From positions 2,143,351-2,207,350 of the forward strand of contig NZ_HG315671.1 in NCBI RefSeq assembly GCF_000723205.1: a stretch of DNA of 64,000 nucleotides, written 5' to 3'. A model generated the notes under the pieces. The model was not told the origin of the DNA and searched no databases. It worked only from the letters and a program-made list of their open reading frames with translations. This stretch comes from Formosa agariphila KMM 3901 (GTDB taxonomy: Bacteria; Bacteroidota; Bacteroidia; Flavobacteriales; Flavobacteriaceae). Numbering within the stretch: position 1 is the stretch's first letter; each line of letters opens with the position of its first letter. Below, in pieces: positions 36,214-63,982 of the stretch. The position numbers and the translations under genes are program-made.

Positions 36214-36229
36214 TCACTGTATTCTGTGA
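36214..36229. promoter_or_regulatory. Palindromic operator-like site, copy 1 (LRR/DUF4132 divergent promoter)
   Basis: TCACTGTATTCTGTGA has exact TCAC-N8-GTGA arms and lies 55 bp before the LRR start codon. It belongs to the repeated family with consensus close to TCACTGAATTCMGTGA. Confidence 0.7.
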
Positions 36230-36260
36230 TATTTAAAACGTAAAAAAAAACTTATAAAAA

Positions 36261-36276
36261 TCACTAAATACCGTGA
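36261..36276. promoter_or_regulatory. Palindromic operator-like site, copy 2 (DUF4132 side)
   Basis: TCACTAAATACCGTGA has exact arms, lies 47 bp from copy 1 and 102 bp before the DUF4132 start. Like copy 1, it is followed by a T-rich GTTTA or ATTTA stretch. Confidence 0.7.
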
Positions 36277-36378
36277 GTTTATACAAACAGATTTCTTTTA
36301 ACTTGCCTACAGTAATTTGGTTTGTTTAGAAAAAGACAAGTCATTGTTAATGAACATAGTTAAAAACATTTAAGAGAT

Positions 36379-39300
36379 ATGATCCCTATAGAAGATGCTA
36401 GAAAATACTTGGAGCAATATAAAAAATCAGCAGTAGACCGATTTGAATTCCGTGCGTATTCTGAGCCTTATCGTGTTTTAGCAAAAGTACTTGCAGGTAT
36501 AGAAAAAGATAAACGCGTCTATTATAATCAGTATGATTTTATTGAGGCCTTCGAAGATCCTTTTAATATAAATCCTTGGACCACACCAGAAGGTATGCGT
36601 TTAGGAATGCAGTTATACGGCATTATTCAAGCACCATACTTAGCAGCAATGTGGGATTTTATAAATACATTACCCTATCAAGATTCTTATAACAGACAAG
36701 CCTTTAGATCGCGAGACGGAGAAGATGTTATACACAAAAAAATAGCAACTTTTAGAGCATTCCTAAATTCCAGCAGAATGGGATTTGGTGGATTAACGCT
36801 ACATGAACATTTTCAATACAGCACCTACTTTCCTCACGGAAACAGCTTATTTTTAGCCACTTTACTTCATAATGGAAATGGTATGTTTGATGAACTTTTG
36901 GACGATATTATTCAAAATGAAGACGAAATTGGTGGTATAAGCGCTGATATTATAAAAGCCTTGTTACTGTCTGAAGACGAAAAACATTGGGAAATGGTGA
37001 GTAAATTACTACTCGCCGCCCAACGCCAAGAAGGTTTAAGACAAACCATTTTAGAGTCTTTAGACGAGTCGGGTCTTAGTGCCCTAAAATATATGATAAA
37101 CGTGCTTTTAGAAAACAATCTGACCCGTTTTTCTAGTGTCACCAGAGCCGTGAGTACGTGGTTTGGCTTAAATTGGGAAACACCTAAAAAATCGGTGATT
37201 AACCGCGTGCTAGAATTGGCACAATCTTTAATTCTTAATTTAAAAGAAGTAGACACCTACTTAAAGAGTAAAGATAATTTAGAAGTGTTAGTTGGTTTGT
37301 GGTCCATTGGTATTTTAGATGTAGATACAGCTAACAGAAAAGCCCTCGATATTGTTTTTGAATCGGAAGATAGACACAAAAAGATTCTTGCATTATATTT
37401 CATTAGTCAAACCGACAAAACAAATGATCTTTTAGTCGAATATTTCAAAAAAGAGGTCGGTAAAGATTATGCATTAGACCATTGGATGGCGGTAAACTTA
37501 CCACCAAGAACTTTAGACAATGAAACGTTTAATCGCTTATTTGCTGTAGCAAAATCGGCCGATGAAAAGGGAAAAACCTTCGAGAGTAAGATATTCTCTT
37601 GGTGGAGTTTCACACCCTCGTCTTACTACTTTTACCAGTTTTTAATTAATGGTGCTACAGAAGAACAATTAGAGCTAATGGCAGACAATTTAGAGACTTT
37701 GCCAACCGAATTTAGGGAGAATTATATACGTAAAGTCTTCCCAAAAGATTACAGTTATTCGCTTTATAATTATCAGCAAAATGCCAAAAAAAAAGAACGT
37801 TTAAATTACGACCAATATTCTTGGAAACGCGCTTTAGCCAGAAAAGCCATTTACAACCGGAATGAACTGGTTATGGCAACGGGATTGAATTTGTTTAATA
37901 AAATGCATCTTTATGAAGCCGATTTAGACATTGCAGAAGATTTACTAAGACGAAAACATAAAGATTTACGTACCTCATTAATTCAGTTATTGGTCGAATT
38001 ACCGGTAGACCAACTCCGAACGCGTACCACAAATTTAGTGACTGCCAAAAATATAGACCAACGTTTAGCAGGACTGGAAGTGTTAACCCTGTTACACGAT
38101 GCCAACAGACAACCTGATTTTATAGAAGCGCATATTCGTGACTATAATAAGCGTCCTAAAATCACTAAAAACGAGCAAGTTTATTTAGATAAATTTTCGG
38201 ACACTGCAGAAGAATTCAACTATAGTAACGGTTTTGGAGCTATAGATTACGATAATTTAACACCGCTATACATCCCAAAAACACGTTTTGAAACGAAGAC
38301 GAATTTCTTTGATAAATTAGGCATTTCCATGTCTGAATCTTCAAAATTCAAGTTCAAGGATTTTATTGATACCAAGAAAATCATCTCTCAGGTCAATAAA
38401 TTAATTGCGCTTGTTACCGAACATAAGCAGCATGAATACCAAACAGAAGTTTATGATGGTGAAATTGCAACCACATACATAGAAAAGGGCATTCGTGATA
38501 TTAAAAAATTAGGAGACGATGCTACTGCAGAAGCACTTTTACATAATATTCCGTTAGCTAACGTTTGGATTGCTTGGTATGAAAAAAGTAGTTTAAATGA
38601 TTTCGAAATGTATGCGACCATTCGATACATAAATCACCACAACGCACCATTTGGGGAATATAAAGAATTGGAACCTTTTGGCAGACAATATTATCCCGAT
38701 TTAAACGGATTAAACCTAGGCGAAAAGCAAGCGTATTACACCACATCCAATGACTATGTCACCATTTTAAGTCGTTTATTTAAAGTCTATTCAGAAGAAA
38801 ATACAATGGCCTCTTTTAAATTAGATATTTTAGAAGATATGGTTGCCAATTTCCCTGAAAAACTCAAATTACTTCAATTTCAATCGTCTCGATATCGTTA
38901 CGAAACCGTGACTTATAATTGGGCAAACATCATTTTACCACTTGCACCAAGTTTAAGTCAGAGTAATTTAAAACATATATCTAATGAAGAACTTCAACGT
39001 TACTGGGGTATTCATATGTATTTAGTCGCTCAAGATATTTCACATCCCGATGCAGAGACCGATGTAAAAGTAATTACACAACAAGCTAAAAGACCAGGAA
39101 TTGTGCCATTCCCTAGTGTAGAGCTCAATTTAAAAGGTTATCAAGCAGGTTTATTAAATGATGATGACTTGCGTTTTCAGGCTTTAAATTCTCATGAATT
39201 AATGGTCATTATGGATGGTGGCTTTAACTACAGAATGAATTTTAAATCGGTTGAAAGAGATTCCATTCCAAAGCACGTGATTGCGCCATTAAAAACCAAT

Positions 39301-41379
39301 TTATTAGAAACAGAACTAGAACGTGGAGATTTAGCGACGCCTGCAACAGCGTATATGAGTTCTATTTACCGCGTAGAAGGCATCGATTATGTGTTCCGGA
39401 TTTTGGAACGTTTAGGAAAAGATAATTTTGAACGTGGTTACAGTTATTATGGAGATAGTAAAAAAACAATCTTTAGCGGTATTTTAAAGAAAACAACCTT
39501 TAAAGACACCGAAAGTTATGCCGATTTCGCCGCACGTGCAGATGCGTCTAATGTCAGTAAAAAACGACTTATAGAACTCGCCTGTTACGCCACACAATGG
39601 ACGGCCTTTGTGGGTGAATATTTAGGTTTAGAAAATTTAGACGCTGCCGTATGGTGGTTTCAAGCGCACGCTTCAGATTATATGAATAGCGAAAAAGAAA
39701 CCATTATTTCGCGTTATTCAAACATACCAAAAAGCGATTTTGCCATTGGAGCCATCGATATCGATTGGTTTAATAAAGTGTATCAAACCATCGGGAAATC
39801 CAATTGGAAATTACTACACGACGCCGCCAAATACATCACCGATGGAAACGGTCATCGCCAAGTCAAATTGTATTCTAGCGTCATGTTAGGTGAAGTAAAA
39901 ATCACCGAAACCCTGAAGAAAATTAAAGACAAACGCGATAAGGATTATGTGCGTGCTTTAGGATTAATTCCATTAAGTAAAACCGTGCCCGAAAAAGACG
40001 TCTTAAAACGTTACAACCTCTTGCAAGATTTCTTAAAAGAGAGCAAGCAATTCGGACAACAACGTCAAGAAAGCGAAGCCATTGCTGTAGGCATTGCATT
40101 AGATAATTTATCACGAAATGCCGGCTATCAAGACCGTGTGCGTTTTAGTTGGGCTATGGAAGCGAAAGCCACTCAAGCCATTATGGAACAAGCCGTGATT
40201 AACATAGAAGAAACAGAGATTGAACTCGTGATTAACGACCTTGGCAAAGCAGATATTAAAGTTACTAAAGCAGGAAAATCATTAAAAAACATACCAGCAA
40301 AACTGCGCAAAGACAAACAAGTTATTGCCTTAAAAGAGCACAAAACGTACTTATCTAGACAATACAGCAGAACACGTGTTTCGTTAGAAAACGCTATGGT
40401 TAACGAAGATGAATTTACGGCAACAGAAATTCATAATATGATGCAACATCCAATTGTAAAGGTGATGTTGAGCAAGTTGGTAATATACGTTCCTGAAAAA
40501 GAAATTTCAGGGTTTTATAACCAAGGAACATTAACAGATACTTCAGGAAAAACGCATCCGTTAGCAGAAGATGATGTGTTACGTATTGCACACGTGTCTC
40601 ATTTATATCAAGCGGTAGAATGGGATATGTACCAAAAATATGTATTTGCAGAGCGCATTACGCAACCATTTAAACAAGTGTTTAGAGAATTGTATTTAAT
40701 CACTAACGACGAACGCGAGCACAGCAACCGTTCCGAACGTTATCAAGGGCATCAAATTCAGCCAAATAAAACCGTAGCACTTTTACGCGGTCGTGGTTGG
40801 ACGGTGAGTATGGAAGACGGCTTACAGAAAGTGTATCATAAACGCGGATTTATAGCCACCATGTACGCCATGGCAGACTGGTATTCGCCTTCAGATGCAG
40901 AGGCACCAACTTTAGAAGTCATTCAATTTCACGCAATAGACAGCTACAAAAACATCCCGATTACAGAGATTCCGCCAGTAATTTTTAGTGAAATTATGCG
41001 CGATATCGATTTGGTGGTAAGTGTCGCTCACGTTGGTGGTGTCGATCCGGAAGCGAGTCATAGTACCATGGAAATGCGTGGTGCATTGGCCGAAGCATCT
41101 GCCCAGTTATTCAAACTTAAAAACATCACGGTTAAAGAGCGTCATATTTTTATAAAAGGGACTTTAGGCGAGTACAGCATTCATCTAGGAAGTGGTCAGG
41201 TGAGCAAAAACGGACTCGCGTTATCCATTATTCCAGTGCATAGTCAACATCGCGGACGAATGTTCTTGCCTTTCGTAGACGAGGACCCAAAATCGGCAGA
41301 AATTATTTCTAAAATGAAATTACTATCAGAAGATAATAAAATACAAGACCCAACCATTTTGGCACAAATTAATAGTTAA
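36379..41379 (+). CDS. Giant DUF4132-domain protein (YehI/MolR-like)
   Basis: The 1666-residue protein has a long alpha-helical N-terminal and central region resembling HEAT/ARM repeats and a C-terminal DUF4132-type domain (about 1390-1640). Markers there are TQPFKQVFRELY, HQIQPNKTVALLRGRGWTV, KRGFIATMYAMADWY and PVIFSEIMRDIDLVVSVAHVGG. E. coli YehI and MolR belong to this group; they sit in a cluster with AAA and vWA proteins but their function is unsettled. No catalytic motif or signal peptide is visible. The protein is probably a large cytoplasmic scaffold. The following 137-residue gene, behind a REP-like element, may share its transcript. Confidence 0.8.
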   Translation: MIPIEDARKYLEQYKKSAVDRFEFRAYSEPYRVLAKVLAGIEKDKRVYYNQYDFIEAFEDPFNINPWTTPEGMRLGMQLYGIIQAPYLAAMWDFINTLPYQDSYNRQAFRSRDGEDVIHKKIATFRAFLNSSRMGFGGLTLHEHFQYSTYFPHGNSLFLATLLHNGNGMFDELLDDIIQNEDEIGGISADIIKALLLSEDEKHWEMVSKLLLAAQRQEGLRQTILESLDESGLSALKYMINVLLENNLTRFSSVTRAVSTWFGLNWETPKKSVINRVLELAQSLILNLKEVDTYLKSKDNLEVLVGLWSIGILDVDTANRKALDIVFESEDRHKKILALYFISQTDKTNDLLVEYFKKEVGKDYALDHWMAVNLPPRTLDNETFNRLFAVAKSADEKGKTFESKIFSWWSFTPSSYYFYQFLINGATEEQLELMADNLETLPTEFRENYIRKVFPKDYSYSLYNYQQNAKKKERLNYDQYSWKRALARKAIYNRNELVMATGLNLFNKMHLYEADLDIAEDLLRRKHKDLRTSLIQLLVELPVDQLRTRTTNLVTAKNIDQRLAGLEVLTLLHDANRQPDFIEAHIRDYNKRPKITKNEQVYLDKFSDTAEEFNYSNGFGAIDYDNLTPLYIPKTRFETKTNFFDKLGISMSESSKFKFKDFIDTKKIISQVNKLIALVTEHKQHEYQTEVYDGEIATTYIEKGIRDIKKLGDDATAEALLHNIPLANVWIAWYEKSSLNDFEMYATIRYINHHNAPFGEYKELEPFGRQYYPDLNGLNLGEKQAYYTTSNDYVTILSRLFKVYSEENTMASFKLDILEDMVANFPEKLKLLQFQSSRYRYETVTYNWANIILPLAPSLSQSNLKHISNEELQRYWGIHMYLVAQDISHPDAETDVKVITQQAKRPGIVPFPSVELNLKGYQAGLLNDDDLRFQALNSHELMVIMDGGFNYRMNFKSVERDSIPKHVIAPLKTNLLETELERGDLATPATAYMSSIYRVEGIDYVFRILERLGKDNFERGYSYYGDSKKTIFSGILKKTTFKDTESYADFAARADASNVSKKRLIELACYATQWTAFVGEYLGLENLDAAVWWFQAHASDYMNSEKETIISRYSNIPKSDFAIGAIDIDWFNKVYQTIGKSNWKLLHDAAKYITDGNGHRQVKLYSSVMLGEVKITETLKKIKDKRDKDYVRALGLIPLSKTVPEKDVLKRYNLLQDFLKESKQFGQQRQESEAIAVGIALDNLSRNAGYQDRVRFSWAMEAKATQAIMEQAVINIEETEIELVINDLGKADIKVTKAGKSLKNIPAKLRKDKQVIALKEHKTYLSRQYSRTRVSLENAMVNEDEFTATEIHNMMQHPIVKVMLSKLVIYVPEKEISGFYNQGTLTDTSGKTHPLAEDDVLRIAHVSHLYQAVEWDMYQKYVFAERITQPFKQVFRELYLITNDEREHSNRSERYQGHQIQPNKTVALLRGRGWTVSMEDGLQKVYHKRGFIATMYAMADWYSPSDAEAPTLEVIQFHAIDSYKNIPITEIPPVIFSEIMRDIDLVVSVAHVGGVDPEASHSTMEMRGALAEASAQLFKLKNITVKERHIFIKGTLGEYSIHLGSGQVSKNGLALSIIPVHSQHRGRMFLPFVDEDPKSAEIISKMKLLSEDNKIQDPTILAQINS

Positions 41380-44470: not shown

Positions 44471-44902
44471 TTACTCAGAAAATTGTTTTATAATTTCAAA
44501 CAAGGTTAATTTAGTTCTCTTTATACTGCCTTCATCGTGACGAAATACATGTACTTTAGTATTATCATAGCAACCAAAAAATAATAAATCACCTTCAGAA
44601 TTAGCGCCAATAGCTTTACCTAAAGCTAATTTTTCTAAACTCCACTTATACCCATCTAAATCTTTAAATGTTGGGTTCATAAATTCACTTAACGTTTTAA
44701 CATACGGATGTAATGCGTAAAGATGGCTAACTTCCATACCATCTATGTTGGTACGTTTCATCATCTTTTCAAAATTATACAAGGTAAATGCTTCTTCCTC
44801 AAAAATTACAGTCCTTGGTTTTTCTGCAATAAAATCTCTGTAATTTTTTCTAAATAGTGGTTTTAGTTCATCTACCGAGGATATAATTAAATTTTCATTC
44901 AT
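44471..44902 (-). CDS. Small SUKH-like (SMI1/KNR4-like) protein, tentative
   Basis: The 143-residue cytoplasmic protein has a C-terminal half, LALGKAIGANSEGDLLFFGCYDNTKVHVFRHDE, that resembles the SUKH fold signature (iGxNxxGDxLxF...V). The N-terminal part (LKPLFRKNYRDFIAEKPRTVIFEEEAFTLYNFEKMMKR) lacks the usual opening motif. SUKH proteins often serve as immunity or protein-binding modules. It is the last gene of a five-gene minus-strand operon and follows the endonuclease V homologue by 20 bp. The family call is uncertain. Confidence 0.5.
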   Translation of the reverse strand: MNENLIISSVDELKPLFRKNYRDFIAEKPRTVIFEEEAFTLYNFEKMMKRTNIDGMEVSHLYALHPYVKTLSEFMNPTFKDLDGYKWSLEKLALGKAIGANSEGDLLFFGCYDNTKVHVFRHDEGSIKRTKLTLFEIIKQFSE

Positions 44903-44922
44903 AGTTGTAACTTTTTAAAGTA

Positions 44923-45432
44923 TTAGTGCTTAGTATTTTCTTTGGTCTTTGTGTCTACAATCTGTAATAATGTTGGCATTCGGTATTTACCGTGCATACG
45001 TTCTATAGCGTTACAAACCTCATCTCTATCCGTACCAATAGCCGTGACATACAATGGTTTTTTACTTTCGCCACGAAACACTTCTTTAAATACCGCTGTT
45101 TTAGACACAAACTCAGATTTTGCAATACCTACAACCGGAATTTTATGCTCTAAAGCTTGGTACAAAAAGCCTCCTAAACCCAAGTGTTTTTCTTCTAGAA
45201 TTACGTAACCATCTACAATAATTAATTCTACCTCATCTAAATTCACTTGTTTTAGTAAACTTAAAATACACGGCAATTCGCGTTTATAAAAAGCACCTGG
45301 TTCGTACGGTTCTACAACTTCAATACTATCGGTGAAAATTTGCGTTGGAGCTTCATCTTCCCAATCGTTAAAGCTTACCGCAATGGTTTTGGCTTTTCCG
45401 TCGTAATAATACGTGTCAAAAGCGAGTATCAT
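44923..45432 (-). CDS. Compact endonuclease V homologue
   Basis: The 169-residue protein matches the core of endonuclease V: AFDTYYYDG with Asp6, EPYEPGAFYKRELP with Glu52, LIIVDGYVIL with Asp74, GLGGFLY, VVGIAKSEF with Lys105, KPLYVTAIG and the closing MHGKYRMPTLLQIVD. Known family members are about 220 residues and cleave DNA or RNA next to inosine/hypoxanthine. This one lacks about 35 N-terminal residues and has Glu where the classical LAH motif has His. The acidic triad and lysine remain, so activity is plausible. It lies inside an operon of immunity-like proteins, not among repair genes. Confidence 0.8.
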   Translation of the reverse strand: MILAFDTYYYDGKAKTIAVSFNDWEDEAPTQIFTDSIEVVEPYEPGAFYKRELPCILSLLKQVNLDEVELIIVDGYVILEEKHLGLGGFLYQALEHKIPVVGIAKSEFVSKTAVFKEVFRGESKKPLYVTAIGTDRDEVCNAIERMHGKYRMPTLLQIVDTKTKENTKH

Positions 45433-45464
45433 AGAGCATTAGTTTAAGAATAAATAAATTAGAA

Positions 45465-46223
45465 CTAACGTAACACCGGAATAATATGCAACCAATTTAA
45501 AGCGATAGCAAAGTCTAAAGCAGTCTTCCCTGTATTGGTTTTAGCCGTTTTATCTGCCCCTAATTCTAATAAAATCTCTACTGCAGTTTTGTTTCCGGCA
45601 ATAGTTTCTGTGTGTAATCTGGTAACGCCATTTTCATCTTTAGCGGTTACAACATCTAAATTTGCGCTAAAATAATCTCGCGCTGGAGTTTCCATGATTT
45701 TACTCATAGGATGCTCGATTAGGTTCTCTTGTTCCTCTACTTGTAAGTGAGCTACAAGAATAGTATTGTAATCGCCAAAATCTAATCCCCAAGCCTGATC
45801 ATGTTTTGCTCTTGCCTCTTCGGTCATATCAGAACGTAGCGCTTGAATGGTATAACCGCCATAGGTTTTACGGTCTATGGATAACATCCAATCGGAAATT
45901 TCTGATACTGTTCTAGTAATTGTATCGCCTTCCGCAACATTCGTTAATCTATTTGGGGAGTTGCTTAGAACGCCTGTAATATATTCGCCATCAAATTCAA
46001 TTTCGCTAATCCACATATGCTCTACAATAGGTTCTTCTCGACCTTCTACCATTTGTTGAAAAGGAATTTTAACCAAGGCTAAATCGTGTACAGGAATCAC
46101 GCGTTTGGCATCCCAATAGATTTCTCTCCAGAAGTAATTAAAGGTGTCTTGGGCTTTACTATAGGCGTCCTTCATTTTTATATTTTGTTCGGCGTAAATG
46201 ATGTCTTTAGTGTCTTGACTCAT
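45465..46223 (-). CDS. DUF2314 protein with C-terminal ankyrin repeats
   Basis: In 252 residues, the N-terminal domain (about 15-165) has the DUF2314 pattern DTFNYFWREIYWDAKRVIP, MWISEIEFDGEYITGVLSNSP, and the strongly conserved KTYGGYTIQALRSDMTEEARAKHDQAWGLDF. The C-terminus (about 195-252) has two ankyrin units (NGVTRLHTETIAGNKTAVEILLELGADKTAKTNTGKTALDFAIALN). Such DUFs recur in polymorphic-toxin immunity clusters and in general Bacteroidota islands. It probably binds another protein. It is the third gene of the five-gene minus-strand operon. Confidence 0.82.
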   Translation of the reverse strand: MSQDTKDIIYAEQNIKMKDAYSKAQDTFNYFWREIYWDAKRVIPVHDLALVKIPFQQMVEGREEPIVEHMWISEIEFDGEYITGVLSNSPNRLTNVAEGDTITRTVSEISDWMLSIDRKTYGGYTIQALRSDMTEEARAKHDQAWGLDFGDYNTILVAHLQVEEQENLIEHPMSKIMETPARDYFSANLDVVTAKDENGVTRLHTETIAGNKTAVEILLELGADKTAKTNTGKTALDFAIALNWLHIIPVLR

Positions 46224-46288
46224 AATATTTTTAAGGTTTTTTGATGTTTTTATCTTTAGCTATTTACAGTCCATGTTCTAATATTCAA

Positions 46289-46996
46289 TTAATAAAAATC
46301 GTAATACAGACTCCACTGTTTGGTCTCGCTATTTTTGGCGAACATTAAGCTCCCGCTATCAACCACATTTAAATTTACTTTTTCGTCTGAAGAAATTTGA
46401 AACACAAACTGAAAGCCTTCTCCAAAGCCTTCAGCATCGCCAATTCCAGATTGACAAAACGAAGGATAGCCACCAATTTTATGGTCGTAAACATGTTCTG
46501 AAATATCGAAATAATCGTCTATTATCCCTTCGTCTTCTAATTTTAAAATTTCAGATTCCATATCTATAGACAAACCACCGCCATCCCATAATGGAAAATC
46601 TTGTTCTTGAAAATCTACTTGTAATGGAAATGGTTTTAAGAAAGAATCTGGATGGTCAATATTTTTAATGGTAATGCCATCTAAATCTTCATATTCACGA
46701 ATCATCCAACGGTCTCCCATAGGTTCTAATTGTTCCGGTAACGCTTGTGATATAAAAACTGTTATCAGTTTTGTTTTTTTAATATTGGGGTGTACGTAAG
46801 GTAAATTAGGAAGGTAAAACTGGGCTAATGGTAACATTAAATCTCCGTGTTTATCTGTTGGAAGTTCTTCATCTTCATGAAAAGCATATACCTTTCCTAA
46901 CCAACTTTCTTCAATAGTATGTGTTGGTCTAAAACCTCCCGCACGAAACGTAGTTACAGGTTTTGCAATTTTATTTTTGATATCTTCTACGGTCAT
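46289..46996 (-). CDS. DUF1963 (YwqG-like) protein
   Basis: The 235-residue protein shows the DUF1963 layout. It has an early TFRAGGFRPTHTIEESWLGK, a DLMLPLAQFYLPNLPYVHP strand pair, a HKIGGYPSFCQSG motif (the usual KIGGxPxxxQ) near 180, QFVFQISSDEKVNLNVVDSGSLMFA, and a terminal strand. YwqG and its relatives are soluble and uncharacterised, and commonly sit beside immunity-type genes. It lies 12 bp after its upstream neighbour in the operon and 65 bp before the DUF2314 gene. Confidence 0.78.
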   Translation of the reverse strand: MTVEDIKNKIAKPVTTFRAGGFRPTHTIEESWLGKVYAFHEDEELPTDKHGDLMLPLAQFYLPNLPYVHPNIKKTKLITVFISQALPEQLEPMGDRWMIREYEDLDGITIKNIDHPDSFLKPFPLQVDFQEQDFPLWDGGGLSIDMESEILKLEDEGIIDDYFDISEHVYDHKIGGYPSFCQSGIGDAEGFGEGFQFVFQISSDEKVNLNVVDSGSLMFAKNSETKQWSLYYDFY

Positions 46997-47008
46997 AATT
47001 ATTCGTTT

Positions 47009-47556: not shown

Positions 47557-47572
47557 TAACGGATTTCAGTGA
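47557..47572. promoter_or_regulatory. Palindromic operator-like site, copy 4
   Basis: TAACGGATTTCAGTGA (minus strand TCACTGAAATCCGTTA) is the left-arm variant of the family. It lies 122 bp before the start of the five-gene minus-strand operon. Confidence 0.55.
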
Positions 47573-51201: not shown

Positions 51202-51203
51202 TT

Positions 51204-53697: not shown

Positions 53698-53713
53698 TCA
53701 CTAGTTTCAGTGA
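53698..53713. promoter_or_regulatory. Palindromic operator-like site, copy 8 (SUKH operon)
   Basis: TCACTAGTTTCAGTGA has exact TCAC-N8-GTGA arms and lies 53 bp before the start of the SUKH gene, the first of the operon that ends with the two-component pair. Confidence 0.7.
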
Positions 53714-53766
53714 TAAAAATGACAATGTTCCAAAGTACCTTAGCATTCTAAATTTACACACGTAAA

Positions 53767-54825
53767 ATGACCAATTACACCGCATATTCAGATAATTTTA
53801 AAGATATACAATGGAGTGATTTTAATTTTGAAAACATTCAAATCGATACCTTTCCTGTCCTAGAAGACCCTTATCATTATAGTAACAGTTTTACATTTAG
53901 AGATGCCCTTTTAGAAGCTATTGAAAAACATACAGGAAAACCCGTCTTTAAACTCTTATTTATTACGCCAGATTACATCAGTATTCACAAATTTTATGGC
54001 ATTGCTTATCTTGAAGGTAAAATGGTTTACGCCTTTAAAATAGAACAAACACCGCTTTTTGAGGAATGGTGTGACACTATATTAGATGAAGACCCAAATG
54101 AGAAAACGCTAACATCTTCTGTGTATTCTTTTGGACAAAATAGTTTTAGCTCACAACCTATTAGCAATTTAAAGCACATCACCTTCCAAGAGCATACAGG
54201 TGCTTTTATTAATCATTTTATTCCCAATCAGTTTATAGCCGAAAAATTGGCAAAAGAAAAGGCCGATTTTTTAGCGCCGTTTATTCAGCTGGAAGCTGGT
54301 ATAGATATGAAAGCCTTGGTAGAATCTTTCATCGGTTTAATTTCAGAAAAAGGGTTAATGCTTCATCCGCCTACAAATAACGAGGCCATTTATAAAACAT
54401 TTGAAAAAGAAGCCGGCTATCCGTTTCCGCAACTCATAAAAGACTACTTAAGCTTGCATAACGGCATTGACCGTTGTGCCATTATGGGTGCAGAAGACAT
54501 GTATAACGAATGGAAACAGTGGAAAGATATTTATGACGATTGGACGCAAGAAGAGTTGTTGGATACCTACTCTACCAACGAAGGAAAAGCGCTATTAATG
54601 TACACCACACCCTATTGGATTCCGTTTTTCGATTTAGAAAACGGGAATTTCCTAGCCTTCGATTTTGCACCGAATACCAAAGGAAACCCCGGACAAATTA
54701 TTCGTTTTGGTGCCGACCAAGAAATTGGATATATCGAGGCCGACGACCTCGTTTCCTTTTTTGAAAGTTTAAGAAGCAACGAAAGCGAAATTGAAGACAA
54801 CGAATGGTTTTATATCGCCAAATAA
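53767..54825 (+). CDS. SMI1/KNR4 (SUKH) domain protein
   Basis: The 352-residue protein has an N-terminal domain of about 165 residues of unknown type (beta-rich, FRDALLEAIEKHTGKPVFKLLFI). The SUKH domain follows (about 195-345), with PPTNNEAIYKTFEKEAGYPFPQLIKDYLSLHNGI, a DMYNEWKQWKDIYDDW segment, YWIPFFDLENGNFLAFDFAPNTKGNPGQII and ADDLVSFFESLRSNE. SUKH proteins often bind other proteins as immunity or regulatory modules. It is the first gene of the plus-strand operon ending with the histidine kinase and response regulator. Confidence 0.88.
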   Translation: MTNYTAYSDNFKDIQWSDFNFENIQIDTFPVLEDPYHYSNSFTFRDALLEAIEKHTGKPVFKLLFITPDYISIHKFYGIAYLEGKMVYAFKIEQTPLFEEWCDTILDEDPNEKTLTSSVYSFGQNSFSSQPISNLKHITFQEHTGAFINHFIPNQFIAEKLAKEKADFLAPFIQLEAGIDMKALVESFIGLISEKGLMLHPPTNNEAIYKTFEKEAGYPFPQLIKDYLSLHNGIDRCAIMGAEDMYNEWKQWKDIYDDWTQEELLDTYSTNEGKALLMYTTPYWIPFFDLENGNFLAFDFAPNTKGNPGQIIRFGADQEIGYIEADDLVSFFESLRSNESEIEDNEWFYIAK

Positions 54826-54868
54826 GGATATGAAAAACAGTATTTAAATTTTGAATAATCCCAAGCAT

Positions 54869-57355
54869 ATGTCTGCGATTTATAAAGAACATATATTACC
54901 TCAATTAAACATAGCATCTTTAGAACCGGCTGAAGTAAAAGCCCTAATTCAGGCTTTAGAAGCGTTAAATGCCACAGATTATGATGCCTATCACACTCTA
55001 AAAAACAATACTGATTTAGAACATGTAACGGCTATTTTTACTGAAAATGTAGCGCAACGTATTTATTTTTATCCGAAGTTGTACGCTAATGAAGAACAAG
55101 GTTTAGCATTTGTTACTTCTTGGTTGCCGTTGTTAGAAAAAGGGTTTTATCCTGATAAAAAAAGCACAAACAAACTCGTAGAATTTTTACAGTTTAGTCT
55201 GAGTTATTTAAATTCCGAAGCCGTTTCTAAAAATGTAAAAACCCAAGTATTTCATGTATTAAAACATATTGTTCTAAGTAAATCTGAAGCATCCTTGCCT
55301 ATTGCTCGTTTTTTGGTGCATTACATTTTTGATATACGAGATGTACTGAATTCCGATTTTTTAATTCAGCAGTGTCTTCAACATACACTTTTAAATGAAA
55401 CCTATTCGGTAGTGCATTCCGATAAAACTATCAGTACGTTTTCATTTAAGATAGACAACCATTTTATAGAACATTTCTTTGAAAATGATTGGTTAAAATT
55501 CATCAGTAAATTTCACTACATATTACCAGTAGGACGGGTTTATATGCCAGGTGCTTACGATTTGATGTTGCCATGGTTTAGCGAAGAATTAGCACTATTT
55601 TACAAAGACCATTTAGAGCAAACCTTTGAACTTCATAAGGCTTTAAAAGAACGATTAATTTTTGGTGAAGTGAAAAGTCTTGAGTTACTCAATCTAAAAA
55701 CCACTGAAAATAATTACCCCGTAATCGTTGGTTTAGAATCTAAAGTTTGGGATGCTGGCGATGTGTTATTGTTTAATAATCGTGATAAAAATATTCCGAT
55801 ACTACAATTAGATGGTAGTTATATGCGATTTATACATTGGTTAACTGCCGATAGCGGAAGTCATTTTTATACAGAAGCTTTTAAAGATTATGGGATACAT
55901 ATTTTAAGCGAGAATTCTGCCGAAGCTCTGCCATTGCAATGCATTCCGTTTTGGTTTAATACCTGTCATCCCAAAACAGGAATTGCGAATCAAACGGAAA
56001 CGTATAACACCGTATTTTCAAAATTGTTAATTGAAGATTGTAAAGACGTACTTCCCACAATGCGTTTTCAACATAAAGATTTTCAGGCGACTGGAGCGTT
56101 TTTATTACAGAATGTGTTTCAAACGCAAGACAACTTCAAAGGTTGGCTTGACGACTTCAAAAAAGCAGGTCTTAAAAATCCGTTAAATCAATTTTTAGTC
56201 CGCACGTTTTTTGATGCGCGCGAGGGGTTAGCGGAGTTATACACTACAGAACAGCAAGAGATTTTACAAAAATATTTATTAGCATTAGCCTATTCTTCAA
56301 GAGACACTAATAATGCTATTAGAACACAACATTTACCATTTATAGTAAAGACACTCGCGACCTTAAGTGTAGAGCCAGGGAATTTTACACGTGTTAACGA
56401 GATTTCGGCACTAAAAAATATTGATGCTTGCGTTGAAGACCTTTGTAACGCTTTTGCACGCGGACATTATATTAATGAAAACCGTCCGCTTAACCTCAGT
56501 ATTATTCAAGCTTGGTTTAATTATTTGGGCGATTTTTATTACAGTTCCGGACAAGAAGCTGTTTGGATTTCGGATGTTTTAAATACGCAAGGTGTCCGCA
56601 CTGCAACCTATTTTAATGCTATGGAAGAAGATGTCAGTTTCTTTTTAGACCGAGCCATAAATCGTATTATCACCTTTCATAGAAAATGTGAATTGAAACA
56701 AGATGACAACCTCATGTTAGGGACTATTGCGACACAAATTGAAATCTATTTAACCGATTTTCTAGGTACATTAGAAAAAGATAAACTCAATGCAAATACT
56801 GCAAAATATCTGCATGAATACAGTAAAGGCGACGAAGCAGGTTTCAGTAATCTAACAGAATTATTAGTTGCTATTGAAGGGTTTAATGGCATGCACTTTA
56901 AACAAGAACCAATTTCAGAGCATAGTACAACTCTAGAACCTATGCCATCCATTAACATAGAGATGGAGGTTGTTGAAATCAACCAAAAATATGTCGATGC
57001 AGTACTTCATAATTTAGAAAATTATAGAACATCCGGTAATTGTGACACGGCACTTTTACAACCGCTAGATGAGAAAATAGAAGAATTTAAAACTTGGTTA
57101 GCTGATGATAAAACAGGAATAGAATCCAAATTTACCCAAGTGCTTTATATGACCTTACTCGATACCAATTTAGCGCCCGGAACAACATCCGAAACCTACG
57201 GGAATCTTTGCAGAAGTATATTTGTACATCTAGTAAAAGACACAAAAATGGCACCTTCGTACGCCATGGGATTACAAGCGATGGCAAATTCCGGTGCGTA
57301 TTCAGAACACCTAAAAACCGCTTTATTAGAGGTTGTTCACCAGTTAAAAGCTTAA
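54869..57355 (+). CDS. Large uncharacterised helical protein
   Basis: ATG 54869 replaces an upstream TTG start. The 828-residue protein is mostly alpha-helical, with repeated amphipathic helices (KALIQALEALNATDYDAYHTL, LAFVTSWLPLLEKGFYPDKKST) reminiscent of HEAT-type scaffolds. A central part has IPILQLDGSYMRFIHWLTADSGSHFYTEAFKDYGIHI. No signal peptide, membrane helix or catalytic motif is seen. Some relatives of this size in Bacteroidota accompany SWIM/vWA proteins (DUF6493-like); I cannot confirm that here. It lies between the SUKH and DUF1266 genes. Confidence 0.65.
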   Translation: MSAIYKEHILPQLNIASLEPAEVKALIQALEALNATDYDAYHTLKNNTDLEHVTAIFTENVAQRIYFYPKLYANEEQGLAFVTSWLPLLEKGFYPDKKSTNKLVEFLQFSLSYLNSEAVSKNVKTQVFHVLKHIVLSKSEASLPIARFLVHYIFDIRDVLNSDFLIQQCLQHTLLNETYSVVHSDKTISTFSFKIDNHFIEHFFENDWLKFISKFHYILPVGRVYMPGAYDLMLPWFSEELALFYKDHLEQTFELHKALKERLIFGEVKSLELLNLKTTENNYPVIVGLESKVWDAGDVLLFNNRDKNIPILQLDGSYMRFIHWLTADSGSHFYTEAFKDYGIHILSENSAEALPLQCIPFWFNTCHPKTGIANQTETYNTVFSKLLIEDCKDVLPTMRFQHKDFQATGAFLLQNVFQTQDNFKGWLDDFKKAGLKNPLNQFLVRTFFDAREGLAELYTTEQQEILQKYLLALAYSSRDTNNAIRTQHLPFIVKTLATLSVEPGNFTRVNEISALKNIDACVEDLCNAFARGHYINENRPLNLSIIQAWFNYLGDFYYSSGQEAVWISDVLNTQGVRTATYFNAMEEDVSFFLDRAINRIITFHRKCELKQDDNLMLGTIATQIEIYLTDFLGTLEKDKLNANTAKYLHEYSKGDEAGFSNLTELLVAIEGFNGMHFKQEPISEHSTTLEPMPSINIEMEVVEINQKYVDAVLHNLENYRTSGNCDTALLQPLDEKIEEFKTWLADDKTGIESKFTQVLYMTLLDTNLAPGTTSETYGNLCRSIFVHLVKDTKMAPSYAMGLQAMANSGAYSEHLKTALLEVVHQLKA

Positions 57356-57358
57356 AAC

Positions 57359-58018
57359 ATGACACAAGATATCACACCCGAAATTCAAGACCAATTAAAC
57401 TTATCGGCTTTGATTTTAAAGAAAAATCATAAACATGCCGACTTAACAAGTTGGTCTGGTTTTGACTTAGAAAACGACATGCAAGTGAAACAAGCCAAAC
57501 GGCTTTTAAACCTGTACGGTATAAAATCTGGTTTGCATTTACGCAATAGTTTACAACGTTATGAAAGCGGACAAATGGTCTCACATAAGTTCGAAAAACT
57601 AGCTTTAGAGTTTCGTATGAGTACCACAACCGACTTTGATGCCAAATACAATGCCGAAGAAAACCCGAGTACAAAAGGCATCTATAAAATGGTGTGGAAA
57701 TACCGTTTCAGCCTAAAGAAAGAGAAACTTATTGGTTACGAAATGGCATATTATATTTTTCAAATGCGTTTGGGTCACGTTTTAGGTTTTATAGACACAG
57801 ACGAAATGATTTTACGTTTAGAAGAAGCGCATGACACCGTTAAGTCGACTTTTTCTAGCTGGGGAGATTTTCACCGAAATGTGTGTTTGGGAGACGAATA
57901 CGTATTAGGAACAACAGAACAAGATATGAGTAAATTTCCTGGAACAGAAACGTTATGGGAATGCTACCAACGTTTACATATAGAACACGCCGATTGGTTT
58001 AAAACATGGAAAAAATGA
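57359..58018 (+). CDS. DUF1266 protein
   Basis: The 219-residue protein shows the DUF1266 features. The N-terminal part has TSWSGFDLENDMQVKQAKRLLNLYGIKSG, and the later half has YEMAYYIFQMRLGHVLGFIDTDEMILRLEEAHDTVKSTFSSWGDFHRNVCLGDEYVLG. DUF1266 members are found in E. coli (the YbeU/YbeR group) and are uncharacterised, often linked to immunity-like genes. Its stop codon overlaps a possible ATG of the next gene (ATGA at 58015), implying coupled translation. Confidence 0.82.
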   Translation: MTQDITPEIQDQLNLSALILKKNHKHADLTSWSGFDLENDMQVKQAKRLLNLYGIKSGLHLRNSLQRYESGQMVSHKFEKLALEFRMSTTTDFDAKYNAEENPSTKGIYKMVWKYRFSLKKEKLIGYEMAYYIFQMRLGHVLGFIDTDEMILRLEEAHDTVKSTFSSWGDFHRNVCLGDEYVLGTTEQDMSKFPGTETLWECYQRLHIEHADWFKTWKK

Positions 58019-60264
58019 GGTTATCAAGACAAGAGGTTATAGCGCATATTGAGCGTGCAGAAGAACTGTATAAAGCCAATCTTTATATGCATTTACAACC
58101 TCATATACGTGCTATACAAGACAATTCTGAAGCTATAGAAGATAGGTATGCAGACCTTGCCAGATATTATCGCATTTACATGCTGTATCTTGGTGCTTAT
58201 GAAGAGATGAATATAGAGGTCCTACAATCTTATTTAGTAGGATTGGAAAACATAAATCACGTTGAAGCTTCAGATTACGAATATGTGTGTAGCCACTATA
58301 AACAATGTGACGAATCGGTATATCAAAAAGCAGTTATGTTATATCCGTATAACGACACATTGCACTTGCATTATGCCTTAAAATTACAATTTGAAAACCG
58401 TTTTAATGAAGCCATTCTTATTCTGAAATACGTTTTAGAATGTTATCCTGGGCTTACAGAAGCACGTCTGTTACTTTGGGATATCGAATCGGCTCAATTA
58501 GAACACTTATGCACATCTACAGAAGATGCCGATTGTTACGAGCTGTTAGATTTAGCATCAGCTACACATAATAAAACCGTTTTAAAAGGGTTACAATTAG
58601 ATGAACGTTTAGACCAAGCCAGTCACAATTTAGCACGTATTCAAGTGGATTTATGGGAACGTAAAGCTTCTGAAAATCAAAAGCAATGGGTTTCGGAATG
58701 GCGACTTCTAGAATTAAATCTTACCACGCGTATTTTATTAGCAGATTATGCAAAATCTTTTATGAAGTACGATATGGTATCGCAAATTTTAAGCGCACCA
58801 AGCGAACCAAAATTCCCCGAAGAAGTATATAGTACTTTCGAGGATTATCAAGCCTATATGCAAGCCTTAGCAAACTCGGGTTGGCAATTGGCACAGCATC
58901 AATATGTATTGATAGGAAATTCGTCATACTATTTTTCAAAAAACAAAAAAACAATAGAAATTTGTGTCGAACGTGGCTTGGCTTTAAATCCTAATAATCC
59001 AATATTACTAGTCTTAAAAGCAAAGTCTTTTTTCTTTAATTTAAATTATCAAGAAACCGGACAAGCCTATCACGAAGCCTATAGAAACGGACTCCGAATG
59101 AGTGAATATTTGTTTTACTTATTAGAAGTGAATAGTCGTATAGAAAGCTGGCAAGGCATATTGGATATCGTGGTACAATTTCATAGACGAAAAACGCCAA
59201 CGCTTAAAACCTTATTTTTTCAGGCCCGTGCCTTAGTGAAATTAGGACGATTCGATGAAGCTCATGACGTGATTAATGAAGCCCTTAACGATTTTCCGTT
59301 ACCACCACATTCTTATGCCCCTTGGTTGTATAATTTGCGTATGATTATCCATAAACATAATCAAAATTTTACAGCGTTTTTTGAAGATATGTACTCCGAA
59401 ATTAATTTTTATGAGATTGGAGATTCAGACTATTGTAGCACCATGAATATGTGTGTAGAAGCTCTTATAGAAATGGGCGATTACAAAGAAGCGCATAAAT
59501 ATGCGATTTATAATTACGAGCAAGAACAATTGGCACCCGAATTATATACTGTATTTCAGTGGATTTGTTTTTACGATTACTTACCAAAACCAGACGATTT
59601 ACCTGCCGTTAGCGCGGAAGATTTAATAGACCAGCCCACAACATTTTTAGAATACAGAAACAATGGGTTTATGCATTGGATGTTAGGCGATAACACTGCC
59701 GCTTCTACTAATTTACAAATGGCATCTACCCTAGCCACTAACAAAGCCTATTATTTAAAATTAGCATTATCGTGTGCAAACGAAGGTTTTGGTGATATTG
59801 AACCTGCCATTACACTCTGTGAAACCATTCAAAGCCAAGTGCCTCAAGCTCAAGACTGGAAATTAGGTTATGATTATGCAAATTTGTTACATCAAGAACA
59901 ACGATACCACGAAAGTTATGAGGCCTTTGAAAAGCTCCTGCAAAACTATCCAGATTATTCTTTTTTTCAATTCGAAAAAGACGAATATCACGTCTTGTTA
60001 AAAGTGTTAAAAGAGGCTTCTAAAGGTATCGGACATATAGAAGATTACACCAAATACAACGCCATGTTTTTAAGTAAAGACCAACCCGCTGAGAATGCTA
60101 TTTTAGAACATTTAGAGATTGCAACTTCAACTTGTAATGACGACTTGTTTTTACGACATAATTTACTAGAACGCGTTTGTAAACTGGATATCGAATTTGA
60201 AAATAACGAGCTTGAAACGTTAAAAGAAATCAAATCTAGAATAAGAAATGCATATTTCGCTTAA
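58006..60264 (+). CDS. TPR-type repeat protein
   Basis: This protein of about 750 residues is an all-helical repeat protein with TPR-like pairs, for example ALKLQFENRFNEAILILKYVLECYPGLTEARLL, ARALVKLGRFDEAHDVINEALNDFPLPP and ALIEMGDYKEAHKYAIYNYEQEQLAPELY. It has no signal peptide. ATG 58006 gives the longest form; ATG 58015, overlapping the previous stop in ATGA, is equally good and would be three residues shorter. It precedes the histidine kinase, whose periplasmic region also contains TPRs, by 27 bp. Confidence 0.8.
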   Translation: MEKMRLSRQEVIAHIERAEELYKANLYMHLQPHIRAIQDNSEAIEDRYADLARYYRIYMLYLGAYEEMNIEVLQSYLVGLENINHVEASDYEYVCSHYKQCDESVYQKAVMLYPYNDTLHLHYALKLQFENRFNEAILILKYVLECYPGLTEARLLLWDIESAQLEHLCTSTEDADCYELLDLASATHNKTVLKGLQLDERLDQASHNLARIQVDLWERKASENQKQWVSEWRLLELNLTTRILLADYAKSFMKYDMVSQILSAPSEPKFPEEVYSTFEDYQAYMQALANSGWQLAQHQYVLIGNSSYYFSKNKKTIEICVERGLALNPNNPILLVLKAKSFFFNLNYQETGQAYHEAYRNGLRMSEYLFYLLEVNSRIESWQGILDIVVQFHRRKTPTLKTLFFQARALVKLGRFDEAHDVINEALNDFPLPPHSYAPWLYNLRMIIHKHNQNFTAFFEDMYSEINFYEIGDSDYCSTMNMCVEALIEMGDYKEAHKYAIYNYEQEQLAPELYTVFQWICFYDYLPKPDDLPAVSAEDLIDQPTTFLEYRNNGFMHWMLGDNTAASTNLQMASTLATNKAYYLKLALSCANEGFGDIEPAITLCETIQSQVPQAQDWKLGYDYANLLHQEQRYHESYEAFEKLLQNYPDYSFFQFEKDEYHVLLKVLKEASKGIGHIEDYTKYNAMFLSKDQPAENAILEHLEIATSTCNDDLFLRHNLLERVCKLDIEFENNELETLKEIKSRIRNAYFA

Positions 60265-62259: not shown

Positions 62260-62264
62260 TAATT

Positions 62265-62900
62265 ATGAAGAAAATAAACATCATAATAGCAGACGACCAC
62301 TTAATGTTTCTTGAAGGTATTAATACCATTTTAAGCGACATGGAAGAAATTGGCGACGTGCATTTGGCCACCGAAGGCAAACAAGTGGTTCGCTTACTAA
62401 ATCAGTTTGAAATTGGTTTAATAATAAGTGATATTAGCATGCCAAAAATGGATGGTATTGAATTGCTTACCGAAATTAAAAAGAAGCATAGTCATGTTAA
62501 AATTATTATGTTAAGCATGTTAGATAATCACAGGACAGTGCATAAAGTGATTCAGAAAGGTGCCGATGGATTTGTGCCTAAATTTACCAGTAAAGAGGAA
62601 TTACAAAAAGCAGTTCGAACGGTTTTAGGTAACGAACAGTATTTCTCCGAGGTGATTAAACAACGTTATATGGAAAGTGTTTTTGAACGTAAAAAATATA
62701 AAAACATAGAATTGTCGCCTCGCGAAAAAGAGGTTTTATCCTTGTTAGGAGACGAGTTAACTTCTAAAGAAATTTCAGAAAAATTATTTATTTCGGTGAA
62801 CACCGTAGAGACGCATAGAAAAAATATTCTTTTAAAAACAGGCTCTAAAACCACAACCGGAGCCGTTAAATATGCCATAGAATCTGGTTTATTTGACTAA
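62265..62900 (+). CDS. NarL/LuxR-family response regulator
   Basis: The 211-residue protein has a receiver domain (about 1-120) with ADDH at 9-12, phospho-acceptor Asp56 in IISDISMPKMDG, and Lys in FVPKFTS. A LuxR-type HTH follows (about 148-208, LSPREKEVLSLLGDELTSKEISEKLFISVNTVETHRKNI). It follows the kinase gene by 5 bp. NarL-like regulators bind palindromic sites of about 16-20 bp, which fits the TCACTGAATTCMGTGA family in this region. Direct control of those promoters is inferred from proximity and site symmetry. Confidence 0.94.
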   Translation: MKKINIIIADDHLMFLEGINTILSDMEEIGDVHLATEGKQVVRLLNQFEIGLIISDISMPKMDGIELLTEIKKKHSHVKIIMLSMLDNHRTVHKVIQKGADGFVPKFTSKEELQKAVRTVLGNEQYFSEVIKQRYMESVFERKKYKNIELSPREKEVLSLLGDELTSKEISEKLFISVNTVETHRKNILLKTGSKTTTGAVKYAIESGLFD

Positions 62901-62924
62901 TACAAAACTTAAAAGCAACGCGCA

Positions 62925-63917
62925 TTATTTAGTTCTAATACCCTCCGCTTCTATAGTACTTATAATTTGTTTTAATTCTTCACTATACGACGTGGTATCA
63001 TTCTCGTCGGTTAATAACTCGCCACGATATATAAATTTAGTATCTAAATCAAAGTACACCACATAAATTCCTGTTTGCGGGTTTTTCCATTTACCATTTC
63101 CGTTATTTACAATGCGCTTATCTTCTAAATACTGTATCCAAGCCCCTCTAGACAAAGTAGATTTATCCATATAAATTTTGCTGTTTTCATTCGTTTTAAA
63201 ATATGGATACGGCCCTTTTAATTTAGCATGTATATGTTCTAAAACCATGGTTTTTAAGCTTTCAAATCCTTCCGCCTTTTCGGATAAAAACATAGGGTTC
63301 TGGATCCGTTTACTATCTTCCATATCTAACGGGATGATTACAAAACCATCAGGATGACTAGCAGTTTTAACGAGTAAACGAAATTGATAGCCTGTGTTTA
63401 ACGTTTCATAAGATTGATTTAACCGATCTATAAAACGTGGTACCAGATCTTCTAAGACTTCAGGTTTTACATCCTCGTTAAAATTCAGCTCAATAGATTC
63501 TGTTGCAAAAGTTATTTCAGGAATTTCATCTTTAAAATCGGCTTTAACAGCTTGTCTCGTTTCATAACGTATTACAGCGTCTTTGTACAAATCATCTACC
63601 GTCATATTATCAGAACTAGGATACATGGGTAGGGTATCGTTTTCTAATATATGTTTCAGATTAAGGTGCGTATAAAATGCTATTTCAGGAATCTCCTTAT
63701 CATAAATAAGCATGCCGTACATATTAGGATCCATAGTTGCCGCGTTAAAAAACAGTGTTAAATCACTATAGCCAAGTTTACCATCATATTTTTGTTGCAG
63801 ATAGTCTTCTAAATTTTGAACTGCTTTTTTTTTTGGTATCCCGATATAATTCGCACAACCTGCAACTATAAGCAGGACGATTAAAATGCATATAACAGAT
63901 AAAATTGTAATCTTCAT
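62925..63917 (-). CDS. Uncharacterised lipoprotein, likely regulon member
   Basis: The 330-residue protein has a signal with lipobox VAGC (Cys21), then a long mixed domain with IPKKKAVQNLEDYLQQKYDGKL, VRYETRQ-like helix RYETRQAVKADFKDEIPEITFA, a GYQFRLLVKTASHPDGFVIIPLD segment and a C-terminal strand region WKNPQTGIYVVYFDLDTKFIYRGEL. The family is not recognised. It converges on the response regulator gene, with only 24 bp between stops. An exact palindrome lies 49 bp before its start, so it is probably regulated with the rest of the set. Confidence 0.7.
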   Translation of the reverse strand: MKITILSVICILIVLLIVAGCANYIGIPKKKAVQNLEDYLQQKYDGKLGYSDLTLFFNAATMDPNMYGMLIYDKEIPEIAFYTHLNLKHILENDTLPMYPSSDNMTVDDLYKDAVIRYETRQAVKADFKDEIPEITFATESIELNFNEDVKPEVLEDLVPRFIDRLNQSYETLNTGYQFRLLVKTASHPDGFVIIPLDMEDSKRIQNPMFLSEKAEGFESLKTMVLEHIHAKLKGPYPYFKTNENSKIYMDKSTLSRGAWIQYLEDKRIVNNGNGKWKNPQTGIYVVYFDLDTKFIYRGELLTDENDTTSYSEELKQIISTIEAEGIRTK

Positions 63918-63966
63918 AATACTCTAGTCTATCATATAAATGTAGAGCAATATTCATACTAGGCCC

Positions 63967-63982
63967 TCACTGAATTCCGTGA
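63967..63982. promoter_or_regulatory. Palindromic operator-like site, copy 9
   Basis: TCACTGAATTCCGTGA has exact arms and is the best match to the family consensus. It lies 49 bp before the lipoprotein start. A partial further copy (CCCGTAA) appears at the very end of the window. Confidence 0.72.

Follow-up and report, generated by a model that had tools for sequence, protein, structure and literature searches.

Does a repeated 16-bp palindrome in the genome of Formosa agariphila KMM 3901 mark the promoters of a single regulon, and if so, which protein acts on it? The question arises from a window of 64,000 nucleotides (G000:C1:2143351-2207350, G000 being the organism's own genome, one contig of 4,228,350 bp), where a first-pass annotation had described twelve perfect or degenerate TCAC-N8-GTGA sites in the promoters of a 28-kb island of DUF4132, vWA and other genes. 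The comparative support for a regulon is strong, and the regulon appears to belong to a known class of systems. We put at roughly 0.85 the probability that the island is one regulon of its own TPR histidine kinase and NarL-type response regulator (RR), which would activate transcription as a dimer bound near -42, its own operon included.

Palindromes at a fixed distance from the -10 element

The arms of the palindrome are weak evidence by themselves. The four perfect sites (36214, 36261, 53698 and 63967) stand where they had been placed, but a fifth perfect-arm copy, which the annotation had not noticed, lies at 9393, outside the island and without a -10 element. With one mismatch in the arms the window holds 19 matches against 14.8 ± 3.7 in shuffled sequences, a number reached in 17 of 100 shuffles, and exact arms occur at 26 places genome-wide against 20 for the reversed control; statistics of this kind are not convincing alone. 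The full 16-mer with at most two mismatches gives 6 matches at 4 places in the own genome, every one in the island; at three mismatches or fewer the count rises to 48, compared with 38 for the control. The 16-mer is specific only when near-exact and does not on its own define the site set genome-wide.

The evidence that carries the case is the spacing between the palindrome and the -10 element. We scored the -10 as matches out of six to TAnnTTTG, which we take to be the usual Bacteroidetes-type element (background for at least 5/6, 0.0104 per strand). In the nine window sites tested first, an element of at least 5/6 lies exactly 22 bp past the site in eight, the ninth (36261) having 4; this promoter's TAnCTTGC is conserved in three same-genus genomes (G001-G003). 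All other offsets from 0 to 49 give at most 1 of 9, and eight hits in nine at offset 22 have a binomial probability of about 3e-13, uncorrected for the 50 offsets. For a second independent test we used 24 named loci from outside genomes, found through the vWA-like protein, and left out those of G001 and G002. In the remaining 22 loci, scored with a matrix made from the window only, the -10 stands at 22 bp in 62 of 66 sites scoring at least 14, with 7 at the next offsets, and in 70 of 77 when the threshold is lowered to 12. Because the -10 lies at this common distance, it gives the orientation of each site, and hence the gene that each site faces.

We also trained a joint model, comprising the site, five bases of the spacer and the -10, on 98 promoters, none from G000; these had been preselected for a -10 of at least 5/6 at 22 bp, so that the -10 part of the model is no independent test of spacing. 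Exactly ten places in the window exceed 8 bits, with scores of 19.2-40.0, while the top score in 50 first-order Markov sequences is 13.4. The same ten are retained from the twelve sites first proposed: 43086 and 48825, which lack a -10 at 22 bp and fail the joint model, were rejected, and 43119 passes. A place at 16783 with a 5/6 element at 22 bp was also set aside, since it lies inside a listed open reading frame (ORF) and scores below 8 bits. With a nine-site matrix, leave-one-out scores are 14.6-23.1 and the next place in the window reaches 11.8; an extra site lies just beyond the window (L062:1853). By the ORF list nine of the ten sites lie between genes, as had been said of all; the exception is 43119, which overlaps the listed GTG start of an ORF whose first ATG is at 43236. 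The reported distance of 45-56 bp from site edge to start was reproduced for the seven genes named, at 55, 54, 56, 49, 45, 53 and 49 bp to the first ATG.

To draw the consensus we kept 117 of 149 segments, those that are non-coding and of full length with a -10 of at least 5/6; they represent 107 distinct promoters. The consensus site reads AAWA-TCACTGAWTTCAGKGA-TAAAA, with TAnnTTTG as the -10. From the tenth spacer base onward, no position holds more than 0.21 bits, and no TTG is conserved. Measured to the first T of the -10, the site centre is ~30 bp upstream, and if that element is centred near -7, the site would be centred near -42. Whole genomes (G000 and 58 relatives) were scanned with patterns allowing mismatches. 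The composite pattern of site, 22 bp and -10 with at most three mismatches is matched 14 times in the own genome, against 5 times for the control, and a single 30-kb stretch holds 11 of the 14 (at 10 places); the preference for these promoters that the regulon proposal called for is thus present in the scan. The retained sites and the genes around them are as follows (coordinates in the window; each -10 in brackets).

33648..36158, minus strand: LRR protein, 836 amino acids (Pfam LRR_14)
36214..36229, minus strand: site TCACAGAATACAGTGA, 22 bp before TAGGTTTG (36184-36191); faces the LRR gene
36261..36276, plus strand: site TCACTAAATACCGTGA, 22 bp before TAACTTGC (36299-36306, 4/6); faces the DUF5724/DUF4132 gene
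36379..41379, plus strand: DUF5724-DUF4132-DUF7737 protein, 1666 amino acids
43119..43134, plus strand: degenerate site TGGCTGAATACGGTGA, 22 bp before TAAATTCG (43157-43164)
44471..47434, minus strand: close-packed genes for DUF2262, DUF1963, DUF2314-Ank, endonuclease V-like and 143-amino-acid proteins; putative operon, judged from the gaps
47557..47572, minus strand: site TCACTGAAATCCGTTA, 22 bp before CACCTTTG (47527-47534); faces the DUF2262 gene
47582..48745, minus strand: putative lipoprotein (by eye); first ATG at 48745, the listed TTG start falling in the -10
48800..48815, minus strand: site TCACTACTTTCAGGGA, 22 bp before TAGTTTTG (48770-48777); faces the gene of the putative lipoprotein
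48957..49598, minus strand: 213-amino-acid protein, no family or fold match
49655..49670, minus strand: site TCATTAATTTCAGTGA, 22 bp before TAATTTTG (49625-49632); faces the gene of the 213-amino-acid protein
49783..50688, minus strand: DUF7738-DUF6892 protein
50738..50753, minus strand: site TCACGGAATACAGGCA, 22 bp before TATCTTTG (50708-50715); faces the DUF6892 gene
50790..50805, plus strand: site TCACAGTTTTCAGGGA, 22 bp before GAACTTTG (50828-50835); faces the coiled-coil/vWA/AdSS operon
50851..53198, plus strand: operon of a 116-amino-acid coiled-coil protein, a vWA-like 286-amino-acid protein and an adenylosuccinate synthetase (AdSS) paralog
53698..53713, plus strand: site TCACTAGTTTCAGTGA, 22 bp before TACCTTAG (53736-53743); faces the SUKH-to-RR operon
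53767..60264, plus strand: operon genes for a SUKH protein, an 834-amino-acid alpha-solenoid protein, DUF1266 and a TPR protein of 752 amino acids
60292..62259, plus strand: TPR histidine kinase (HisKA_3 and HATPase_c), assigned to the same operon since the gaps do not exceed 27 bp
62265..62900, plus strand: NarL-type RR (receiver and GerE/LuxR helix-turn-helix (HTH)), the proposed activator
62925..63917, minus strand: 330-amino-acid putative lipoprotein (by eye)
63967..63982, minus strand: site TCACGGAATTCAGTGA, the top-scoring one, 22 bp before TACATTTA (63937-63944); faces the gene of the 330-amino-acid lipoprotein

Conservation of the sites and of the regulator

Sites recur before orthologous genes in Formosa, Winogradskyella, Mesonia, Salegentibacter, Maribacter and others, as the regulon proposal had predicted for relatives. 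Orthologous promoters were counted in as many as 25 kinase-containing loci, and a promoter was accepted when a gene-facing site of at least 12 bits lay within 300 bp upstream; the model leaves out the tested genome yet includes its relatives, and with such close kinship the counts are not independent. Promoters of first genes carry the site in 23/23 loci for SUKH (site 53698), 18/18 for p213 (49655), 9/9 for p229, 4/4 for DUF5724 (36261) and 19/24 for p122 (50790), followed by DUF6892 (50738) with 15/23, p396 (48800) with 10/14, p330 (63967) with 7/9, where the G127 ortholog has the 16-mer and no -10 at 22 bp, and LRR (36214) with 3/5. Fewer are found within 300 bp of DUF2262 (3/11), DUF2314 (1/8), DUF1963 (1/12) and p144 (0/5). 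In the eight DUF2262 misses the facing site is 817-841 bp off, with an extra ORF in between in G001 and G003, the two inspected; p144 orthologs have a facing site 721-774 bp away in G001, G002, G003 and L153, and in G000 the site overlaps the listed start. Interior genes have none (p286 and AdSS 0/24 each; p834, DUF1266 and TPR752 0/22 each; RR 0/12), nor was a site seen upstream of p152, SIMPL, p256, p143, EndoV, p138, p131 or p133 in the loci counted. Site 47557 would drive the DUF2262 gene and, probably, those that follow it.

The sites also go with the regulator. Among the five same-genus genomes compared with G000 (G001-G005), RR orthologs are 93-97% identical in G001-G003, and the top matches in G004 and G005 reach 38%; the DUF5724 gene is present in the genomes with an RR ortholog and missing in G004-G005. 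Composite matches number 14, 11, 14 and 13 in G000-G003 (controls 5, 3, 3 and 2), compared with 3 and 1 in G004 and G005 (controls 2 and 3), where there is no excess. In the scan of relatives, G023, G030 and G058 together have 58 composites against 3 for the control, and the 52 genomes other than these three and G000-G003 have 121 against 83. In a wider family sample of 397 genomes, the RR occurs at 81-95% identity in five genomes of other genera (G127, G263, G283, G355 and G372), each with at least one site followed by a -10 of at least 5/6 at 22 bp. G372 has matches to the kinase, the regulator, p131 and LRR while most of the island is missing, and its site precedes the kinase by about 160-180 bp, with TACATTTG (a 6/6 element) at 22 bp. 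No site was found before the target genes in five outgroup vWA/AdSS loci without the RR in the locus (L168-L172: Sinomicrobium, a gammaproteobacterial metagenome-assembled genome (MAG), two Neolewinella and a Saprospiraceae MAG), nor upstream of the DUF5724 gene of G052 (L148); at other positions, L148 and three of the five outgroup loci contain matrix matches that lack a -10 at 22 bp.

Across genera the regulator (62265-62900) is 81-97% identical and the kinase (60292-62259) 58-82%, and strong constraint on the regulator is as expected of a protein with many binding sites.

The regulator and its rivals

The RR at 62265, which had been named as the candidate regulator, is the only one of the island proteins scanned to have a known DNA-binding domain by Pfam, and it is the best-supported candidate. 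It has a receiver and a GerE HTH, the kinase has HisKA_3 and HATPase_c domains, and putative phospho-acceptor residues were read by eye as Asp (ADDH, ISD) in the RR and His (EIHDGIG) in the kinase. We propose that in response to a signal the kinase would have the RR phosphorylated, and that its dimer would then bind AAWA-TCACTGAWTTCAGKGA-TAAA. The bound dimer near -42 would replace the missing -33 element and recruit RNA polymerase, as in class II activation. The targets would be at least ten promoters in the window and one just beyond it, and with the SUKH-to-RR operon among them, kinase and regulator would be under positive autoregulation. The sites keep a constant distance to the -10 and overlap the -35/-33 region, with +1 counted from the usual place of the -10, which is the geometry of class II activators; they are concentrated at the promoters of this set and conserved along with the regulator, as a single regulon requires.

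Several points weigh against this proposal. Many of the promoters used as tests are orthologous and so not independent, and the genome-wide count of the 16-mer at three mismatches is near that of the control. No scoring site is found at DUF6892 in 8 of 23 loci, at p122 in 5 of 24 and at p330 in 2 of 9. The kinase has a site of its own in 1 of 25 loci and none in the other 24, and autoregulation hinges on co-transcription from SUKH to RR. Because the DUF5724 gene is also missing in G004-G005, these two genomes give co-occurrence and not an independent test; absence of the RR for L168-L172 was judged from the locus. Finally, the own genome has a second RR, a paralog which may bind some of the island sites.

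This paralog is at the centre of the rival that survives best, although we regard it as unlikely: a different regulator, most likely the paralogous RR at G000:1870923, binds the sites, and the island RR controls something else. The paralog is about 40% identical to the island RR and belongs to a second TPR-kinase/NarL RR pair (G000:C1:1868772-1871783; L075:8772-11783), with similar sites nearby (TCACTGTTTTCAGGGA, ACACGGTTTTCGGGGA) and a kinase promoter that reads ACACGGTTTTCGGGGA, 22 bp, TACATTTG. The paralog sites share a CTG-N4-CAG core and the 22-bp spacing, and an island-like site lies just downstream of the own-genome paralog (G000:1871768). On the other side, the sites accompany the island RR in G000-G003, G127, G263, G283, G355 and G372. 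Moreover, G003 has the island and its sites, and the other RRs read there carry different recognition helices: STRTIETHRAN (the best match after the ortholog), SKRTAEVHRFN, SKRTVEKHRSN and SSRTVDKHRSN. This comparison covers 4 of the 18 other RR matches.

The motif is tied more broadly to a subfamily of regulators, to judge from the surroundings of related RRs. We defined close RR paralogs by the helix SKH(T/S)(I/V)E(S/T)Y and 38-47% identity, and searched around each RR, as far as 6 kb upstream and 3.5 kb downstream, leaving out L055 (a short contig). A composite lies near 8 of 11 close paralogs, each time with a site upstream of the kinase and on its strand, against 1 of 19 loci of other RRs (Fisher 2.2e-4); control spacings give means of 0.86 and 0.38 sites in total. 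In four of the paralog kinases the site edge is 33 bp upstream of the ATG, and the members of the close group in which no composite was found are L069, L074 and L076. The single positive among the other RRs is in G058, with a helix like that of the island RR and many TCACTGAATTCAGTGA copies; some of the exact copies in G058 (L118-L122) stand beside an RR with the helix SPNTVETHRKN, and of 8 sites examined a -10 follows at 22 bp in 1. G023 has 24 composites against 1 in the control, and its TCACTGAAAACAGGGT-type sites, 22 bp before TAnnTTTG, are scattered over the genome (L123-L128, L180-L190, L194), before DUF1963 and p131-like genes and many genes for secreted proteins. L069-L080 were chosen by RR, whereas the target loci of G023 and G030 were chosen by composite match, so that their -10 at 22 bp is no evidence. 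A simple helix code, in which NTVETH or KHTIESY would specify TCAC versus TCCC half-sites, fits G058 but is contradicted by G023, where two RRs read have the KHTIESY-type helix yet the sites are TCACTG...CAGGG; we set it aside as only a hint.

It is less probable still that the island RR is a repressor, its dimer blocking RNA polymerase until a signal releases it. The site borders on the -35/-33 region, a position from which repression would be feasible as well. But repressor sites are usually more variable in position, and here the spacing is exact to the base pair; because it is constant, and because the spacer consensus has no TTG-type -33, as if the bound protein supplied that contact, the RR is more readily understood as an activator. 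The rigid link to the -10 could also mark a bipartite promoter of an alternative sigma factor, with the 16-mer as part of it and no separate operator, yet we consider this very improbable: the 16-mer is palindromic and fits a dimer, the -10 is of the usual Bacteroidetes type, and related RRs carry the same motif. Apart from the HTH of the RR, Pfam found no sigma factor domain in the island proteins scanned, and a weak NCBIfam sigma-factor match (21.6 versus 800 bits) falls within the ankyrin portion of the DUF2314-Ank protein. Chance or functionless local duplication, to which the arms alone, barely exceeding chance, might point, is negligible against the joint model, the spacing test (including loci outside the matrix), the cross-genus conservation and a spacer that is mostly unconserved between site and -10.

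Known relatives and a possible role

A dimer of the island RR acting near -42 would place the system with the NarL/FixJ-family class II activators. NarL, VraR and FixJ bind near -42, and they share with the island system the receiver and GerE HTH, a HisKA_3 kinase, a palindrome that fits a dimer and a fixed promoter-proximal position; VraR and NarL are the nearest solved chains to the RR by sequence. The island differs from all three in its motif, the Bacteroidetes -10, the TPR sensor and the target genes. Among the 25 NCBIfam matches listed, no equivalog reaches its cut-off, and the nearest, MctR (153.7 versus 300 bits), is so far under it that the rhizobial MctR/MctS system was rejected as the closest named one. 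FimS/FimR of Porphyromonas, a Bacteroidetes pair of a TPR kinase and a NarL-type RR, likewise has a TPR-rich kinase, and residues 120-442 of the island kinase match the FimS model best, at 84.9 bits against a cut-off of 600, which falls short of orthology. A search of open-licence papers found no description of this regulon.

The 213-amino-acid protein has a predicted fold (pLDDT 82) with no PDB match (best E 1.4), and that of the 834-amino-acid protein is a predicted alpha-solenoid, loosely HEAT-repeat-like, with TM at most 0.24 among the 50 matches listed. The vWA-like protein has a DVTGSMG motif and no Pfam or PDB match; its vWA label, like the coiled-coil one, comes from reading the sequence. 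The vWA-like/AdSS pair (window 51204-53198) is also found together in a gammaproteobacterial MAG, two Neolewinella and a Saprospiraceae MAG (L169-L172), with the motif absent upstream. A tRNA-Gly gene (window 33206-33279) stands immediately outside the left end of the island, where the LRR gene ends at 33648, and is a possible insertion point; G002 has three tandem LRR genes (G002:C1:3032475-3040300; L117) where the window has one. Behind p229, L062:684-1085 encodes a 133-amino-acid TssD/Hcp-like protein; type VI secretion was considered and set aside, because the protein is just under the TssD cut-off and is the sole TssD match in each of G000-G003. Elsewhere in the window, 21484-23685 encodes a single protein with GIY-YIG, Schlafen-type helicase and Peptidase_S24-like matches.

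As to purpose, we tentatively suggest that the kinase-regulator pair senses danger or competition and induces the island genes in concert, as an innate-defence regulon of marine flavobacteria, a possibility that we rate well below even. SUKH and some of the other island families are associated with immunity to polymorphic toxins. Among 10 proteins scanned with the PADLOC models of anti-phage defence, 2 gave a match, one to a SUKH candidate model (PDC-M40A) and one to a generic TPR model. The comparison in mind is the Gac/Rsm system of Pseudomonas, which acts through Rsm, post-transcriptionally, and not through one operator. It is described as a danger-sensing regulon in which one sensory system governs many little-known clusters, one of them, PA4317-23, being an antagonism-resistance cluster with a MoxR-like ATPase and a VWF-domain protein (PMC8926400, PMC11888443). 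The system belongs to another phylum, and we claim no homology. Similarly, in the DdrO radiation/desiccation regulon of Deinococcus, the DUF4132 gene DRA0166 is reported to rise on DdrO depletion (PMC8533742); regulator and site are unrelated to those of the island, and the likeness is that of a DUF4132 gene in a regulon. From the shared families, the MoxR/VWF cluster and the Deinococcus DUF4132 gene, a defence role might extend to the SUKH, DUF1963, DUF1266, DUF2262, LRR, vWA and DUF4132 proteins, perhaps convergently with Gac/Rsm, and with the same reserve one may imagine that paralogous pairs of other Flavobacteriaceae control overlapping families from scattered sites.

The genes behind composites in other genomes bear on this suggestion. 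Of 37 ORFs listed, 10 were scanned with Pfam, giving two DUF1963 (G023), one DUF1266 (G030), one carbon-nitrogen hydrolase, four without family, a G016 SUKH match under the cut-off (E 0.005) and one very weak match (E 0.0098). In BLASTP of the island against 32 composite-associated proteins, the only matches are those of p131 and p229 to one G023 protein and of the kinase to a G023 kinase; a 129-amino-acid protein of G023 is 39% identical to p131. Target families are thus shared in part, most listed targets being secreted or uncharacterised and unlike those of the island.

For the DUF4132, DUF5724, DUF6892, DUF2262, DUF1963, DUF1266 and SUKH genes, these results offer a candidate regulator, an operator geometry exact to the base pair and a gene list. 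To our knowledge, few activator-dependent promoters have been mapped in Bacteroidetes, and the geometry of site and -10 is a usable rule to find them. The trigger of the kinase, if found, would show what these poorly known genes are for.

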